Source of the DNA: Spirochaetales bacterium
GTDB lineage: Bacteria > Spirochaetota > Spirochaetia > SZUA-6 > DRHE01
Direction: 5' to 3'
Assembly: GCA_030604195.1 (NCBI GenBank)
Contig: JAUVWI010000002.1
Span: 62,001 to 126,000, forward strand
DNA: 64,000 bases
Shown here piece by piece: positions 8,532 to 51,989 of this stretch (its first letter is position 1; every line of letters starts with the position of its first letter). Made by a program: the position numbers and the translations under genes. A model generated the notes under the pieces. That model saw only the letters and a list, made by a program, of their open reading frames with translations. It was not told the DNA's origin and made no database searches.

Positions 8532-8655
8532 CCCCTTAGCTCCAATCAAACCGCTTACGTCTCATTAACAAGTTGCTTACCGCTGCTACCTTCCGGTCCT
8601 GACGGAATTGGGCAACAGTTAATAGCGTATGGCCCGACCTTCATAGCTAAGGGGG
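8532..8655 (-). ncRNA. ffs: signal recognition particle RNA, small bacterial type
   Basis: The minus strand carries the hallmark apical domain TCAGGACCGGAAGGTAGCAG, which binds Ffh. The ends pair through CCCCTTAGCT and AGCTAAGGGG, closing a rod-like hairpin of roughly 120 nt without an Alu domain. It lies immediately upstream of dnaX in the same direction, as in Bacillus scr-dnaX. Confidence 0.93.
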
Positions 8656-8657
8656 GA

Positions 8658-8744
8658 CGGAGAGAGAGGGATTCGAACCCTCGGTGCCCTTACGAGCACA
8701 CACGCTTTCCAAGCGTGCACCTTCGGCCTCTCGGTCATCTCTCC
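8658..8744 (-). tRNA. tRNA-Ser (anticodon GGA)
   Basis: A class II tRNA with acceptor stem GGAGAGA/TCTCTCC, anticodon loop TTGGAAA, a long variable arm and T loop TTCGAAT. It reads TCC/TCT codons. The CCA end is not encoded. Confidence 0.97.
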
Positions 8745-8777
8745 AAAAAAATATTTCAAAAAGCTGCCCTGCCAGGA

Positions 8778-8865
8778 CGGAGAGAGTGGGATTCGAACCC
8801 ACGGAACTGGCAAGCAGCTCAACGGATTTCGAGTCCGCCCGATTCAACCGCTCTCGCATCTCTCC
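8778..8865 (-). tRNA. tRNA-Ser (anticodon CGA)
   Basis: Class II tRNA: acceptor GGAGAGA/TCTCTCC, anticodon loop CTCGAAA and a long variable arm. It reads TCG codons. No CCA is encoded. Confidence 0.96.
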
Positions 8866-8875
8866 TTTTTAATTA

Positions 8876-8949
8876 CGTGCCCAAGAGGATTCGAACCTCC
8901 GGCCTTTAGATCCGCAATCTAACGCTCTATCCAACTGAGCTATGGGCAC
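8876..8949 (-). tRNA. tRNA-Arg (anticodon GCG)
   Basis: A class I tRNA with acceptor GTGCCCA/TGGGCAC, D arm GCTC...GAGC, anticodon stem TTAGA/TCTAA and loop TTGCGGA, giving anticodon GCG. Most bacteria read CGN codons with an inosine-modified ACG anticodon, so a G34 arginine tRNA is less usual. CCA is not encoded. Confidence 0.93.
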
Positions 8950-8953
8950 ATAA

Positions 8954-9040
<87 letters not shown>

Positions 9041-9065
9041 CGATTGAAAGAAACAACTTCTGATC

Positions 9066-9150
9066 CGGAGAAGGTGGGATTCGAACCCACGGAACCTTGC
9101 GGTTCAACGGTTTTCAAGACCGCCTCCTTCGACCACTCGGACACCTCTCC
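9066..9150 (-). tRNA. tRNA-Ser (anticodon TGA)
   Basis: Class II tRNA: acceptor GGAGAGG with CTTCTCC (one G-U pair), anticodon loop CTTGAAA, long variable arm and T loop TTCGAAT. It reads TCA and other TCN codons. First gene of the minus-strand cluster. Confidence 0.96.
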
Positions 9151-9199
9151 AGTTTTGTCCTCAATATACCCATAGCGGTACCATGCTGGCATGTGCCAT

Positions 9200-48358: not shown

Positions 48359-49579
48359 ATGAATTTAAAAAATGATCTTAATATCCTGCTTGTTGAAGAC
48401 TCATCAAGTGAGCAGAACTATATAAAGCAGGTCATCCATTCTTTAGGCCATACTGTTACAACCTGTGCCCGCGGTGAAGAGGCTTGGGAACTTTTCAAGA
48501 TGAATAATTTTCAACTGCTCCTTCTCGACTGGATACTACCGGGCATGGATGGCCTGGAGCTGTGCCGTCGTCTGCGAGCTACCCCGGCCGGAGAGAAAGT
48601 CAGTATAGTGGTTATAACTGCGCGCAGTGAACCGGAAGATCTAGAAAAGGTTCTGGAAGCGGGCGCCGATGATTACATCTCCAAAATGGCCGGGCTAGAT
48701 CTTTTCCGGGTAAGGCTGCGTATAGCCCTGCAGCAGGCCTATATGCGAAAGGAAAGAGTGAACGCGGAGGAAAAACTGGCAGGGCTTAGCAGCCGCTTGA
48801 TCAGGGACCAGCACGCAGCCGCCAAAATTCAGCAATCCCTGCTGCCGAAGACACTGCCGGTTTGCCGTGATCTCTCTTTTGACTACCTGTTTATGCCCTG
48901 TGAAGAGCTGGGCGGAGATATGCTGAATATCTTCCGGCTTGATGAAAACAAAATTGGTTTTTATCTGGCCGATATTGCCGGCCATGGCATCGAGGCGGCG
49001 CTTTTTGCGGTAATGATTAACAGTATTCTTCAACCCAGCACATATCACTCTTCACTATCCAGATGGTTTTTAGAGGAGAGCAGAACTTACCGTATTGTGC
49101 AGCCGGCAGCTGTCGCTGAGAAGCTCAATAAGGAATTTCCTTTTGGAGTAAGCGACCAGCTAATCTTTACTCTGATTTATGGTATTTTAGACTGTAAATC
49201 CTTTACCCTGAAATATAGTGCAGCAGGACATCAGGGCATTATGCTTCAATCTGGTGCGCAGGGGGCCAGGGCAATCAAGAGGCCGAGCTTTCCAATCGGT
49301 GCTTCCCCTGAGCCGGGATATGAAGAACAAATCATACAATTACAGCCGGGAGACAGGTTTTTTATCTTTTCAGATGGAGTTTCAGAGGCCAGCAATTTAA
49401 AAAATGAACAATTTGGAGATAATCGGATAAAGGAAACCCTTGACCGAACTTCCGAACTGAATATCAAGGATAGTGCTAAAGAGATTTTTTCAGATCTTTC
49501 CACTTTTAGAGGGAGTAAAGATCAGGAGGATGATGTGACCATCCTCTCTATTGAGGTTTTACCGCAAAGTCAGCGGTAA
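48359..49579 (+). CDS. response-regulator PP2C phosphatase (RsbU/SpoIIE type)
   Basis: The protein of about 406 residues joins a receiver domain (residues 5-125, phospho-acceptor in LLLLDWILPGMDG) to a SpoIIE-type PP2C domain (about 185-400) with EELGGDMLNIF, LADIAGHGIEAALFAV, FSDGVSEA and a final DDVTILSIE; these supply the metal-binding aspartates. Such proteins dephosphorylate anti-anti-sigma factors in partner-switching cascades. GGAAG lies 8 bases before ATG 48359; TTG 48344 is an alternative. No anti-sigma-antagonist gene is adjacent. Confidence 0.9.
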   Translation: MNLKNDLNILLVEDSSSEQNYIKQVIHSLGHTVTTCARGEEAWELFKMNNFQLLLLDWILPGMDGLELCRRLRATPAGEKVSIVVITARSEPEDLEKVLEAGADDYISKMAGLDLFRVRLRIALQQAYMRKERVNAEEKLAGLSSRLIRDQHAAAKIQQSLLPKTLPVCRDLSFDYLFMPCEELGGDMLNIFRLDENKIGFYLADIAGHGIEAALFAVMINSILQPSTYHSSLSRWFLEESRTYRIVQPAAVAEKLNKEFPFGVSDQLIFTLIYGILDCKSFTLKYSAAGHQGIMLQSGAQGARAIKRPSFPIGASPEPGYEEQIIQLQPGDRFFIFSDGVSEASNLKNEQFGDNRIKETLDRTSELNIKDSAKEIFSDLSTFRGSKDQEDDVTILSIEVLPQSQR

Positions 49580-49588
49580 GAGAACAGG

Positions 49589-50083
49589 TCAACCCGCGGC
49601 AAATTTGCCGGCATCCCGCTCTAGAGCGATCTTGCCTGTTCTAATAGATTCCAGGATTTTATAATTTTTAAATAGATTTAAAGCATTGTCCACTGCGGTT
49701 GTATCACCGGTTATTTCCAGGGTCCAGATGGATTTTGCTGAATCTATAATCCGCGCCTGCACTGCGGTTATAATCTGCAGGAGCTCCGCCCTTTTAGCCT
49801 CGTCAATTTCAATTTTAACCAGGGCATGCTCTCTTTCCACACCATCCTCCGGTTTTATATCCCAGACCTTGATAACATGAACCAGTTTCTGCAGCTGTTT
49901 TCTAACCTGCTCTAAAACACGGTCATCACCCTGAACTACAATTGTAAACCTGCTTTTACCAGGGATGTCTGTGTGTCCCACGCTGAGGCTTTCTATATTA
50001 AAACCGCGCCTGGAAAAAAGAGATGAGATCCTGTTCAATACTCCCGGAGTATCTTCGCAGAGAATGGATATTGTATGTTTCAT
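49589..50083 (-). CDS. ilvN: acetolactate synthase small regulatory subunit
   Basis: The 164-residue protein starts with an ACT domain (ISILCEDTPGVLNRISSLFSRRGFNIESLSVG) and has the usual second domain (VKIEIDEAKRAELLQII). It binds valine and regulates the large subunit. It follows ilvB by 10 nt, and the operon is preceded by an attenuator at 51798. It ends convergent to the phosphatase gene. Confidence 0.95.
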   Translation of the reverse strand: MKHTISILCEDTPGVLNRISSLFSRRGFNIESLSVGHTDIPGKSRFTIVVQGDDRVLEQVRKQLQKLVHVIKVWDIKPEDGVEREHALVKIEIDEAKRAELLQIITAVQARIIDSAKSIWTLEITGDTTAVDNALNLFKNYKILESIRTGKIALERDAGKFAAG

Positions 50084-50093
50084 CTTTTACCTC

Positions 50094-51755
50094 CTATTCA
50101 ACATATTCTAAAAGAGACGAGCCGGTTACCATGGGGTAGACATTAGAAGTATCTTCCAGGGCAAAATCAATTACACATACCCGGTCAGCAGAAAGAGCCT
50201 TTTCCACGGCAGGACTAATTTCCTTTTCCTCAACCACCCTCATACCCTGGGCGCCCATGCTTTCAGCCAGCTTGCTGTAGTTTACAGCTTTTCCCAGCTT
50301 ACAGCTTCTGTACCTCTTGCCGTAAAATATATCCTGAAGCTGGTTGATCATACCCAAACAGTAATCATTCATTATCATAACAATTATTGGGATATCCTCT
50401 TCAACAGCGGTGGCTATTTCCTGGCAGTTCATCATAAAAGAGCCGTCACCGGAGATGGTTATCACTTTGCGGTCAGGTTGACCTGTTTTCGCTCCAATTG
50501 CCGCAGGCACTCCGAATCCCATTGTTCCCAGTCCGCCCGAGGTAATAAATGAGCGGCTCTTTTGAATGGGAAAGTAATGAGCGGTGAATATCTGGTGTTT
50601 ACCCACGTCCGTAACGATTAAGGGGTCCCGGGAAATCTCAAATAGTATTCTCAATATGTTGGGGATACTGACTCCGCTCATCTTTCCTTTCAGCGGATGA
50701 TCATGAGCAACTTTCTTTAAGAAATTACGCCATTCAGAATGTTTTTTCAGGGGTAAAAGGTCGGCGAGCTGACCGATTATATTCTTTGCATCACCTACAA
50801 TGGGCAGATCAACAGCTACATTTTTGCTGATCTCGGCAGGATCAATATCTATGTGGATAATTATTGCCTGGGCAGCAAAGGTGTCTAAGGGACCGGTTGA
50901 CCGGTCACCAAAGCGGGTGCCAACCGCTATAATCAGGTCAGATCTTTGAATTGCCGTATTGGCCTCGATCCGTCCGTGATAACCTATCATGCCCAAACAA
51001 TTCTTATGAAGATTGGGAAAAGCAGCCTTACCCATAAGGGTATATACCACCGGTATGTCTCCTTTTTCAGAGAGTAAGCGAAGCTCTTCATTGGCTTCGG
51101 CATAGAAAACACCGCCGCCTGCAATTATCAGCGGCCTTTTAGCATTTTTTATCAGGTTAAGCGCTCTTTTAACCTGGCCGGGATGTCCCTTAACAGTTGG
51201 ATTGTAGCCCTCCAGAGGGTGGCGTTTTGAGTTTTTAGAAGAGAATTCCTCCAGTTGAACATCCTTGGGAATATCAATTAACACCGGTCCTTTGCGTCCT
51301 GATGAGGCAAGATAGAATGCTTCTTCTATGCGGAAGGGAAGTGAATCAGCCTGCTGAATAAGATAGTTGTGTTTGGTTATGGGCAAGGTTATACCGGTGA
51401 TATCCACTTCTTGAAAGGCATCATTACCGATCATTGTGCGTGGCACCTGCCCGGTTATGGCTGCAACAGGTGAAGAATCCATATAAGCATTTGCCAGTCC
51501 GGTTACCAGGTTGGTGGCGCCGGGACCGCTGGTAGCCATACAAACCCCAACTTTACCGGTGGCGCGTGCATAGCCGTCGGCCATGTGTGCCGCTCCCTGT
51601 TCATGTCTGGTAAGAATATGCCTTATTGAAGATCTGGCAAGTTCATCGTAAATCGGAAGTGTAGCCCCCCCGGGATAACCGAAGATTACTTCTACACCCT
51701 GATTTTCCAACGACTTGACAATCGCCCTGGCACCGGTCATTTTATTTTTTTTCAT
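50094..51755 (-). CDS. ilvB: acetolactate synthase large subunit
   Basis: This TPP- and FAD-dependent enzyme makes acetolactate or acetohydroxybutyrate, the first step of valine, leucine and isoleucine synthesis. The 553-residue protein shows GYPGGATLPIYDEL and ARATGKVGVCMATSGPGATN in the N-terminal domain, FGDRSTGPLDTFA in the middle, and the TPP motif GDGSFMMNCQEIATAVEEDIP to NDYCLGMINQ near residue 430. Expression is likely controlled by leader peptide 51862-51948 and terminator 51798-51838. Confidence 0.96.
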   Translation of the reverse strand: MKKNKMTGARAIVKSLENQGVEVIFGYPGGATLPIYDELARSSIRHILTRHEQGAAHMADGYARATGKVGVCMATSGPGATNLVTGLANAYMDSSPVAAITGQVPRTMIGNDAFQEVDITGITLPITKHNYLIQQADSLPFRIEEAFYLASSGRKGPVLIDIPKDVQLEEFSSKNSKRHPLEGYNPTVKGHPGQVKRALNLIKNAKRPLIIAGGGVFYAEANEELRLLSEKGDIPVVYTLMGKAAFPNLHKNCLGMIGYHGRIEANTAIQRSDLIIAVGTRFGDRSTGPLDTFAAQAIIIHIDIDPAEISKNVAVDLPIVGDAKNIIGQLADLLPLKKHSEWRNFLKKVAHDHPLKGKMSGVSIPNILRILFEISRDPLIVTDVGKHQIFTAHYFPIQKSRSFITSGGLGTMGFGVPAAIGAKTGQPDRKVITISGDGSFMMNCQEIATAVEEDIPIIVMIMNDYCLGMINQLQDIFYGKRYRSCKLGKAVNYSKLAESMGAQGMRVVEEKEISPAVEKALSADRVCVIDFALEDTSNVYPMVTGSSLLEYVE

Positions 51756-51797
51756 TGCTTCCCCCTTTTATATTTACAACCAGGCAGATTCAGGTGC

Positions 51798-51838
51798 AAA
51801 AAAAAACCTGCCGCCTTTATTATCTAAAAGGCAGCAGG
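51798..51838 (-). terminator. ilvBN attenuator terminator
   Basis: On the minus strand CCTGCTGCCTTT and AAAGGCGGCAGG pair over 12 bp (one G-U) around an 8-nt loop and run into nine T residues. The 5' arm can instead pair with GGCAGCAG in the end of the leader peptide reading frame, forming an antiterminator. Confidence 0.88.
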
Positions 51839-51861
51839 CCCAAAATAACTTTAGTTTCGGC

Positions 51862-51948
51862 CTAAAAGCTGCTGCCGTCCGGTAAAAGTAGTACAGCTAC
51901 CACTAGAAGAGAAGTTAATACTGTTCTACTGTTGGTGAACGACATCAT
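51862..51948 (-). CDS. ilvL: ilvBN leader peptide
   Basis: A 28-codon minus-strand frame begins with two methionines and includes the run TVLTSLLVVAVLLLPDG, rich in leucine and valine codons. The TAG stop lies 24 bp from the terminator hairpin. The layout copies the enteric ilvB/ilvG attenuators, in which ribosome stalling at scarce branched-chain aminoacyl-tRNAs prevents terminator formation. The ribosome binding site is weak. The gene name follows the enteric usage and is an inference. Confidence 0.78.
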   Translation of the reverse strand: MMSFTNSRTVLTSLLVVAVLLLPDGSSF

Positions 51949-51960
51949 AACAATCTGCTT

Positions 51961-51989
51961 ATATTATTAATAATCAACTATCCGGTCAA
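51961..51989 (-). promoter_or_regulatory. ilvBN promoter with tandem CCTTGACCGG repeats
   Basis: On the minus strand TTGACC (51984-51989), a 17-bp spacer and TAATAT (51961-51966) form the promoter. The -35 lies in one of two direct CCTTGACCGG repeats (51982-51991 and 52001-52010). The plus-strand promoter of the next gene must lie downstream of these, before 52132; nothing else is seen in 51949-52131. Confidence 0.6.

Follow-up and report, generated by a model that had tools for sequence, protein, structure and literature searches.

Within the window (the whole stretch of 64,000 nucleotides analyzed here, part of a 3.83 Mb draft genome), the genes for the large and small subunits of acetolactate synthase, ilvB and ilvN, are preceded by a short frame rich in leucine and valine codons and by an intrinsic terminator. 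A promoter-like pair, TTGACC-17-TAATAT, spans positions 51989-51961 of the minus strand, directly 5' of the leader frame. From the promoter to ilvN, the features of the locus are:

51984-51989, minus strand: -35 box TTGACC, paired with the -10 box at 17-nt spacing
51961-51966, minus strand: -10 box TAATAT, its end 12 nt 5' of the leader ATG
51862-51948, minus strand: leader peptide ORF of 28 codons with an ATG start, encoding MMSFTNSRTVLTSLLVVAVLLLPDGSSF
51937-51947, minus strand: region 1, at the start of the leader ORF, partner of region 2 (putative anti-antiterminator)
51869-51880, minus strand: region 2, (GGAC)GGCAGCAG, at the end of the leader ORF, partner of region 1 or region 3
51837-51862, minus strand: spacer, foldable as the top of the antiterminator (GGCC at 51862-51859 with GGCC at 51840-51837)
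51827-51839, minus strand: region 3, terminator 5' arm, GCCTGCTGCCTTT
51806-51818, minus strand: region 4, terminator 3' arm, AAAGGCGGCAGGT
51798-51806, minus strand: U tract of the intrinsic terminator, nine T
51760-51766, minus strand: Shine-Dalgarno-like AGGGGGA of ilvB
50094-51755, minus strand: ilvB, acetolactate synthase large subunit, the putatively regulated gene (TIGR00118, 734.5 bits versus a cut-off of 538)
49589-50083, minus strand: ilvN, acetolactate synthase small subunit (TIGR00119, 171.8 bits versus a cut-off of 56.9)

The 28-codon frame described in the original prediction was confirmed at 51948-51862 and assigned to the minus strand, which had not been given; an alternative start of the ORF is possible at 51945, and its control codons encode LLVVAVLLL. 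The nine T residues after the hairpin were likewise found as described, while the stem of the terminator, GCCTGCTGCCTTT-TAGATAAT-AAAGGCGGCAGGT at 51839-51806, comprises 13 pairs (-22.4 kcal/mol) instead of the 12 reported earlier. The match of the terminator 5' arm to the leader frame was recovered as well, in that GGCAGCAG (51876-51869) is complementary to CTGCTGCC (51837-51830). The fold of the leader region was beaten by only 1 of 200 shuffles (z = -2.72), and a detector for a branched-chain amino acid (BCAA)-rich ORF followed by a terminator gave no positives among 120 shuffled upstream regions. Elsewhere in the window, at 8541-9151 on the minus strand, four tRNA-Ser genes (GGA, CGA, GCT, TGA) and one tRNA-Arg gene adjoin a small SRP RNA.

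For comparison, ilvB relatives were fetched together with their upstream DNA. All close relatives of the window's ilvB were spirochaete records, and the spirochaete origin suggested from the sequence was therefore correct. At 22 orthologous ilvB loci from at least six families of the Spirochaetia, the same layout was present: a Leu/Val-rich frame with its stop codon, a terminator that covaries, and the three pairings 1:2, 2:3 and 3:4. Two of the leaders are near-identical, leaving 21 distinct ones. The cultured relative Marispirochaeta associata (L012/L123) shares this layout. Leaders of relatives, such as MAKPFMLSIQLVFPLVLSPVLVVVLLNMNGSG, MRKLFIMRNLQMRKDVLLLALLLVVVLLSPGGRSS and MTATVRNLVVSLSVLVVVVLVVVDAGRRRSG, exhibited lengths within a range of 28 to 71 codons, and isoleucine, leucine and valine accounted for 31 to 55% of each peptide, with Leu and Val dominating. 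Among the 809 pooled leader residues there were 161 Val (20%), 140 Leu (18%) and 30 Ile; Phe (3.6%), Met (2%), Ala (6%) and Trp (0) showed no enrichment. Since valine and leucine were high but Phe, Met, Ala and Trp low, the codons, and not general hydrophobicity, are under conservation. Each attenuator feature that can be tested in a sequence was found at these loci, namely an ORF with start and stop, control codons, a terminator and competition between pairings 1:2 and 2:3, the only exception being a single leader (L115, 1 of 22 loci) that lacks a recognizable start codon. With the Leu/Val codons and both hairpins kept at all 22 loci, the attenuator proposed in the original prediction, for which conservation in close relatives had been named as the check, stands.

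The distribution of the leader within the class was not uniform. Within the same GTDB family, four relatives from genera g2 and g4 (L086-L089) had no leader, and another gene directly precedes their ilvB; these relatives have lost the leader. Genus g42 (L097, L125-L127) was also without it. In one relative (L118/L009), GCAGTCGTAACTGCCTTA (AVVTAL) occurs five times in tandem and in frame within the leader ORF, the control codons being multiplied through repeat expansion. When 40 upstream regions from the same phylum were surveyed, few convincing leaders were seen outside the class (L202, L206, L216 and perhaps L215), and for this reason we do not extend the leader switch to the whole phylum.

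We then consider the pairings themselves. In the terminator (3:4), changes on both sides occurred at 5 of 10 pairs, and 94.9% of cells in the alignment were paired, compared to at most 54% in slid registers; 18 cells were changed on both sides, a number reached by none of 500 shuffles. The alternative pairings were examined by register-free duplex energies, with each region tested against its own partner, against the partners from other loci and against shuffles. Region 1 paired better with its own region 2 than with non-cognate ones (p = 0.0019; versus shuffles, p = 0.0011), as did region 2 with region 3 (p = 0.0031; versus shuffles, p = 1e-4), while the control pair 1:3 showed no cognate preference in the same test (p = 0.66). 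In fixed alignment columns, 79% of 2:3 positions were paired, and column-wise covariation was not significant. The hairpin covariation named in the original prediction as a check was detected for the terminator, whereas the 2:3 pairing is conserved without it. The spacer stem beat shuffles (z below -1) in 10 of 21 loci (Fisher p = 0.00014). In the window, the two competing structures are of similar stability (antiterminator, -20.2 kcal/mol; terminator, -22.4 kcal/mol).

The effect of a ribosome on these structures was modeled by placing it at each codon of the leader and reading out the sequestered fraction of the terminator 5' arm. Taking for each locus the maximum within the Leu/Val cluster, region 3 was sequestered to a mean of 0.74, versus 0.17 with the ribosome at the stop codon, and the direction was identical at 22 of 22 loci. 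Shuffling the segment 3' of the last cluster codon lowered the sequestration of region 3 from the observed 0.65 to 0.50 (Wilcoxon p = 0.00026 over all loci), a difference that was not significant in most single loci. In the model without a ribosome, region 3 was still 54% sequestered, and the brake exerted by pairing 1:2 would hence be only partial.

Codon choice and the start of the leader were also distinctive. CTA made up 26% of the leader Leu codons versus 6% in the ilvB genes of the same genomes (p = 1.4e-4), corresponding to an ~fourfold preference; among Val codons, GTC was doubled and GTT depleted relative to the ilvB genes. This bias fits the idea that attenuator leaders favor codons read by those tRNAs whose charging drops first. 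A TTGAC element 16 to 18 nt from a -10 box that ends at most 12 nt before the leader ATG was present in 14 of 20 relatives but in only 27 of 20,000 shuffles, the end of the -10 box lying 6 to 12 nt before the ATG in these 14 of 20 loci. Shine-Dalgarno-like sites were seen at 4 of 20 leader ORFs versus 17 of 20 ilvB genes. Because the -10 box is adjacent and a Shine-Dalgarno site mostly absent, translation of the leader ORF probably takes place on a nearly leaderless mRNA whose start is predicted; for the window, the position of the -10 box predicts a 5' UTR of ~5 nt.

A second ilv operon of the same genome, ilvB-ilvN-leuA-leuC-leuD-cimA (leuC and leuD named by place and sequence), is preceded by a second predicted attenuator, made up of an Ile/Leu-rich leader, MNCISGYSLLLTLPLALIIISLIIIGVTPIVTGG, and a terminator (L001, G000:C128, about 49430-49640). 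Fifteen leaders of this type from across the class behaved in the ribosome-position model like the ilvBN leaders (0.76 versus 0.24) and were rich in isoleucine (86 of 535 residues). As judged from their codons, the ilvBN leader would read leucine and valine, and the leader of the cimA-containing operon isoleucine and leucine. A separate leader of leuA was rejected as a candidate, as leuA lies inside the operon in this genome and no leader directly precedes it. Upstream of trpE, three relatives (L262, L264 and L266) carry short frames that encode WW, WWAW or WWW and have terminators behind them; these frames are probable Trp attenuators of the Spirochaetia. Upstream of hisG in the genome of the window (L258), we observed a His-rich frame, MKLLQIILILDVIESRFFNTTYPNHPRHHHHYHSLSH, with a Shine-Dalgarno site and with no terminator within 70 nt.

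Taken as a whole, the ilvBN leader very probably acts as a ribosome-mediated transcription attenuator, with charged leucyl- and valyl-tRNA as its signal. The ORF, its codons, the terminator and the conserved alternative pairings are seen in the sequences themselves; from them we infer that the leader is translated, that ribosomes stall on it, that transcription terminates and that ilvBN thereby responds to starvation, as follows. The leader ORF would be translated as soon as it is clear of RNA polymerase. If leucine or valine were scarce, the ribosome would stall on the LLVVAVLLL codons, leaving region 2 free to pair with region 3, assisted by the spacer stem; the resulting 2:3 antiterminator would block pairing 3:4, and ilvBN would be transcribed. 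If both amino acids were plentiful, the ribosome would reach the stop codon and cover region 2, the 3:4 terminator would form, and transcription would end ~45 nt before ilvB. In an untranslated leader, regions 1 and 2 would pair, and the terminator would also tend to form.

Some translation-linked leaders act through coupling, Rho-type termination or exposure of a ribosome-binding site. We regard it as very unlikely that the present leader is translated and needed but that control is exerted at one of these levels, including exposure of the ilvB ribosome-binding site: the ilvB start follows the leader stop by 64 to 146 nt in relatives, as such control would allow, but leader and ilvB are separated by a strong intrinsic terminator and its U tract at every leader-bearing locus, and the Shine-Dalgarno site of ilvB in the window is positioned outside the terminator stem. 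Slightly less credible still is that the frame arose by chance or encodes a small protein, perhaps of the membrane, with no relation to ilvBN, the hairpin being just the constitutive terminator of a short transcript. Peptides rich in valine and leucine do look like transmembrane stretches, and the hairpin by itself is an ordinary terminator. However, the peptides can be aligned only among close relatives (not beyond the genus level), and what is kept are the Leu/Val codons and the RNA-pairing end; the lack of enrichment of Phe, Met, Ala and Trp, the fixed distance from leader stop to terminator (17 to 24 nt at 22 of 22 loci), the maintained pairings 1:2 and 2:3, the preference for CTA, and the equivalent Ile-rich and Trp-rich frames before the other ilv operon and trpE all argue against this reading.

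T-box or ppGpp-riboswitch control of ilvB is found in some other bacteria. Control of the terminator independent of translation (by a riboswitch, a T-box or an RNA-binding protein), with the ORF being incidental, is the least likely of the three alternatives: it could draw on the stable 5' hairpin and on the ppGpp-riboswitch class located before ilvB in some other bacteria (PMC10272879), but Rfam 15 scans of the leader (gathering and E-value) yielded no family at threshold (best score 16 bits, far below gathering scores), no ilvB-related Rfam model matched the leader at its gathering score, the T-box covariance model had no match in the window, in its own genome (G000) or in G001 and G003, and relatives conserve the codons and the mutually exclusive hairpins instead of an aptamer-like block. 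Exactly one T-box each was detected in the genomes of other relatives (G011, G016, G024, G026, G047, G049, G067, G084, G085, G090 and G097).

Leader-peptide attenuation of ilv genes is long established for enteric bacteria and Actinobacteria, and the type of mechanism proposed here is already known; what is new is its presence across a group, the Spirochaetia, where it has hardly been recorded. The E. coli ilvBN and ilvGMEDA attenuators share the logic of regions 1 to 4; the ilvBN leader reads Val and Leu, and that of ilvGMEDA also Ile. The genome of the window parallels this arrangement with its Leu/Val leader (ilvBN) and its Ile/Leu leader (ilvB-ilvN-leuA-leuC-leuD-cimA). In enteric leaders, a Shine-Dalgarno site is present and the 5' UTR is longer, whereas most leaders of the Spirochaetia, which belong to another phylum, lack a Shine-Dalgarno site, and the window's ilvB is of archaeal affinity. 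Although the original prediction drew its comparison from the enteric systems, the position of the predicted start and region 1 place the leader nearer to the attenuator of ilvBNC in Corynebacterium, which has a near-leaderless start (PMC11857589); in C. glutamicum, the ORF of the ilvBNC leader starts 1 nt from the transcript start (PMC11857589). This attenuator (ilvB-II motif; PMC11857589, PMC10272879) likewise has a BCAA-rich leader ORF near the transcript start (predicted here), a first hairpin over the ORF start, and an antiterminator and intrinsic terminator before ilvB. It differs in that its leader has ~15 codons, compared to 28 to 71 in the Spirochaetia; the latter encode mostly Leu and Val and little Ile and show no recognizable sequence relation to it, and ilvC is not part of the operon in the genome of the window.

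Among spirochaetes, the ilvB motif of Leptospira (WRC-14-1) was described from seven representatives, all from Leptospira (PMC8632094), and was reinterpreted in 2023 as a BCAA- and Thr-rich uORF, the mechanism being suggested to be common (PMC10272879). Compared by description only, it resembles the present leader in lying before ilvB of a spirochaete and in having a BCAA-rich uORF whose Val codons include a run of three or more; the leader family described here is found in spirochaetes other than Leptospira. The ilvB-OMG motif, found in various phyla (PMC10272879), is similar in having a BCAA/Thr-rich uORF before ilvB and distinct in that no ilvB-related Rfam model matches the window locus. 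A survey from 2010 noted that, until its own case from Firmicutes, leader-peptide systems had been demonstrated in Proteobacteria and Actinobacteria only (PMC2965389). The occurrence in a spirochaete, singled out earlier as noteworthy, is less surprising given the previous proposal of a BCAA-rich ilvB uORF for Leptospira (PMC10272879).

In a protein tree, IlvB proteins of the window type formed a spirochaete clade (support 100/100) separate from the canonical spirochaete IlvB; this clade, on a long branch, grouped with Methanosarcinales, Methanocellales and Archaeoglobi (100/98). The simplest reading of this tree would be a transfer of ilvB between archaea and a spirochaete ancestor. A single clade of spirochaete and Archaeoglobi IlvB was neither supported nor rejected (p-AU 0.24), and an earlier grouping of the two was dropped, as it involved a long-branch row. 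In Archaeoglobaceae, a BCAA-rich frame, for example MSATLELNNFGVVLGVVLIVVVVLLL or MRKCSRIAELCNLFLLVVVH, was observed upstream of ilvB at all 31 loci examined (L223-L253; also L041, L047, L049, L051, L059, L060 and L062). These 31 loci represent one family and are not independent; at least 5 of the last 11 codons encode I, L or V in 31 of 31, compared to 113 of 3,100 shuffles. The run of Val, Leu and Ile codons directly precedes the stop, which lies 21 to 40 nt before ilvB; the frames look leaderless, with the ATG 21 to 23 nt after a TATA-like box in most loci, and no bacterial-type terminator hairpin was found upstream of ilvB in the 31 loci. The frame is a candidate for an archaeal codon-sensing leader, and a search of open-licence papers found no report of such a leader of ilvB, nor of codon-sensing leader control in Archaea. 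We consider it quite unlikely that leaderless codon-sensing ORFs control ilvB in Archaeoglobaceae and that the spirochaete gained its first leader ORF with the gene from an archaeon, a bacterial terminator being added later between leader and gene. If borne out as leaders, the Archaeoglobaceae frames would open up codon-sensing leader control in Archaea.

For the Spirochaetia, our analysis extends classical leader-peptide attenuation beyond its textbook groups to a wide range of members of this class, where attenuation is apparently the ordinary control of ilv and trp operons. The near-leaderless start, seen earlier in Actinobacteria, probably recurs here, and a single genome appears to hold two differently tuned BCAA leaders. 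Such leaders may serve as a read-out, from the DNA alone, of the amino acids that an uncultured spirochaete senses.
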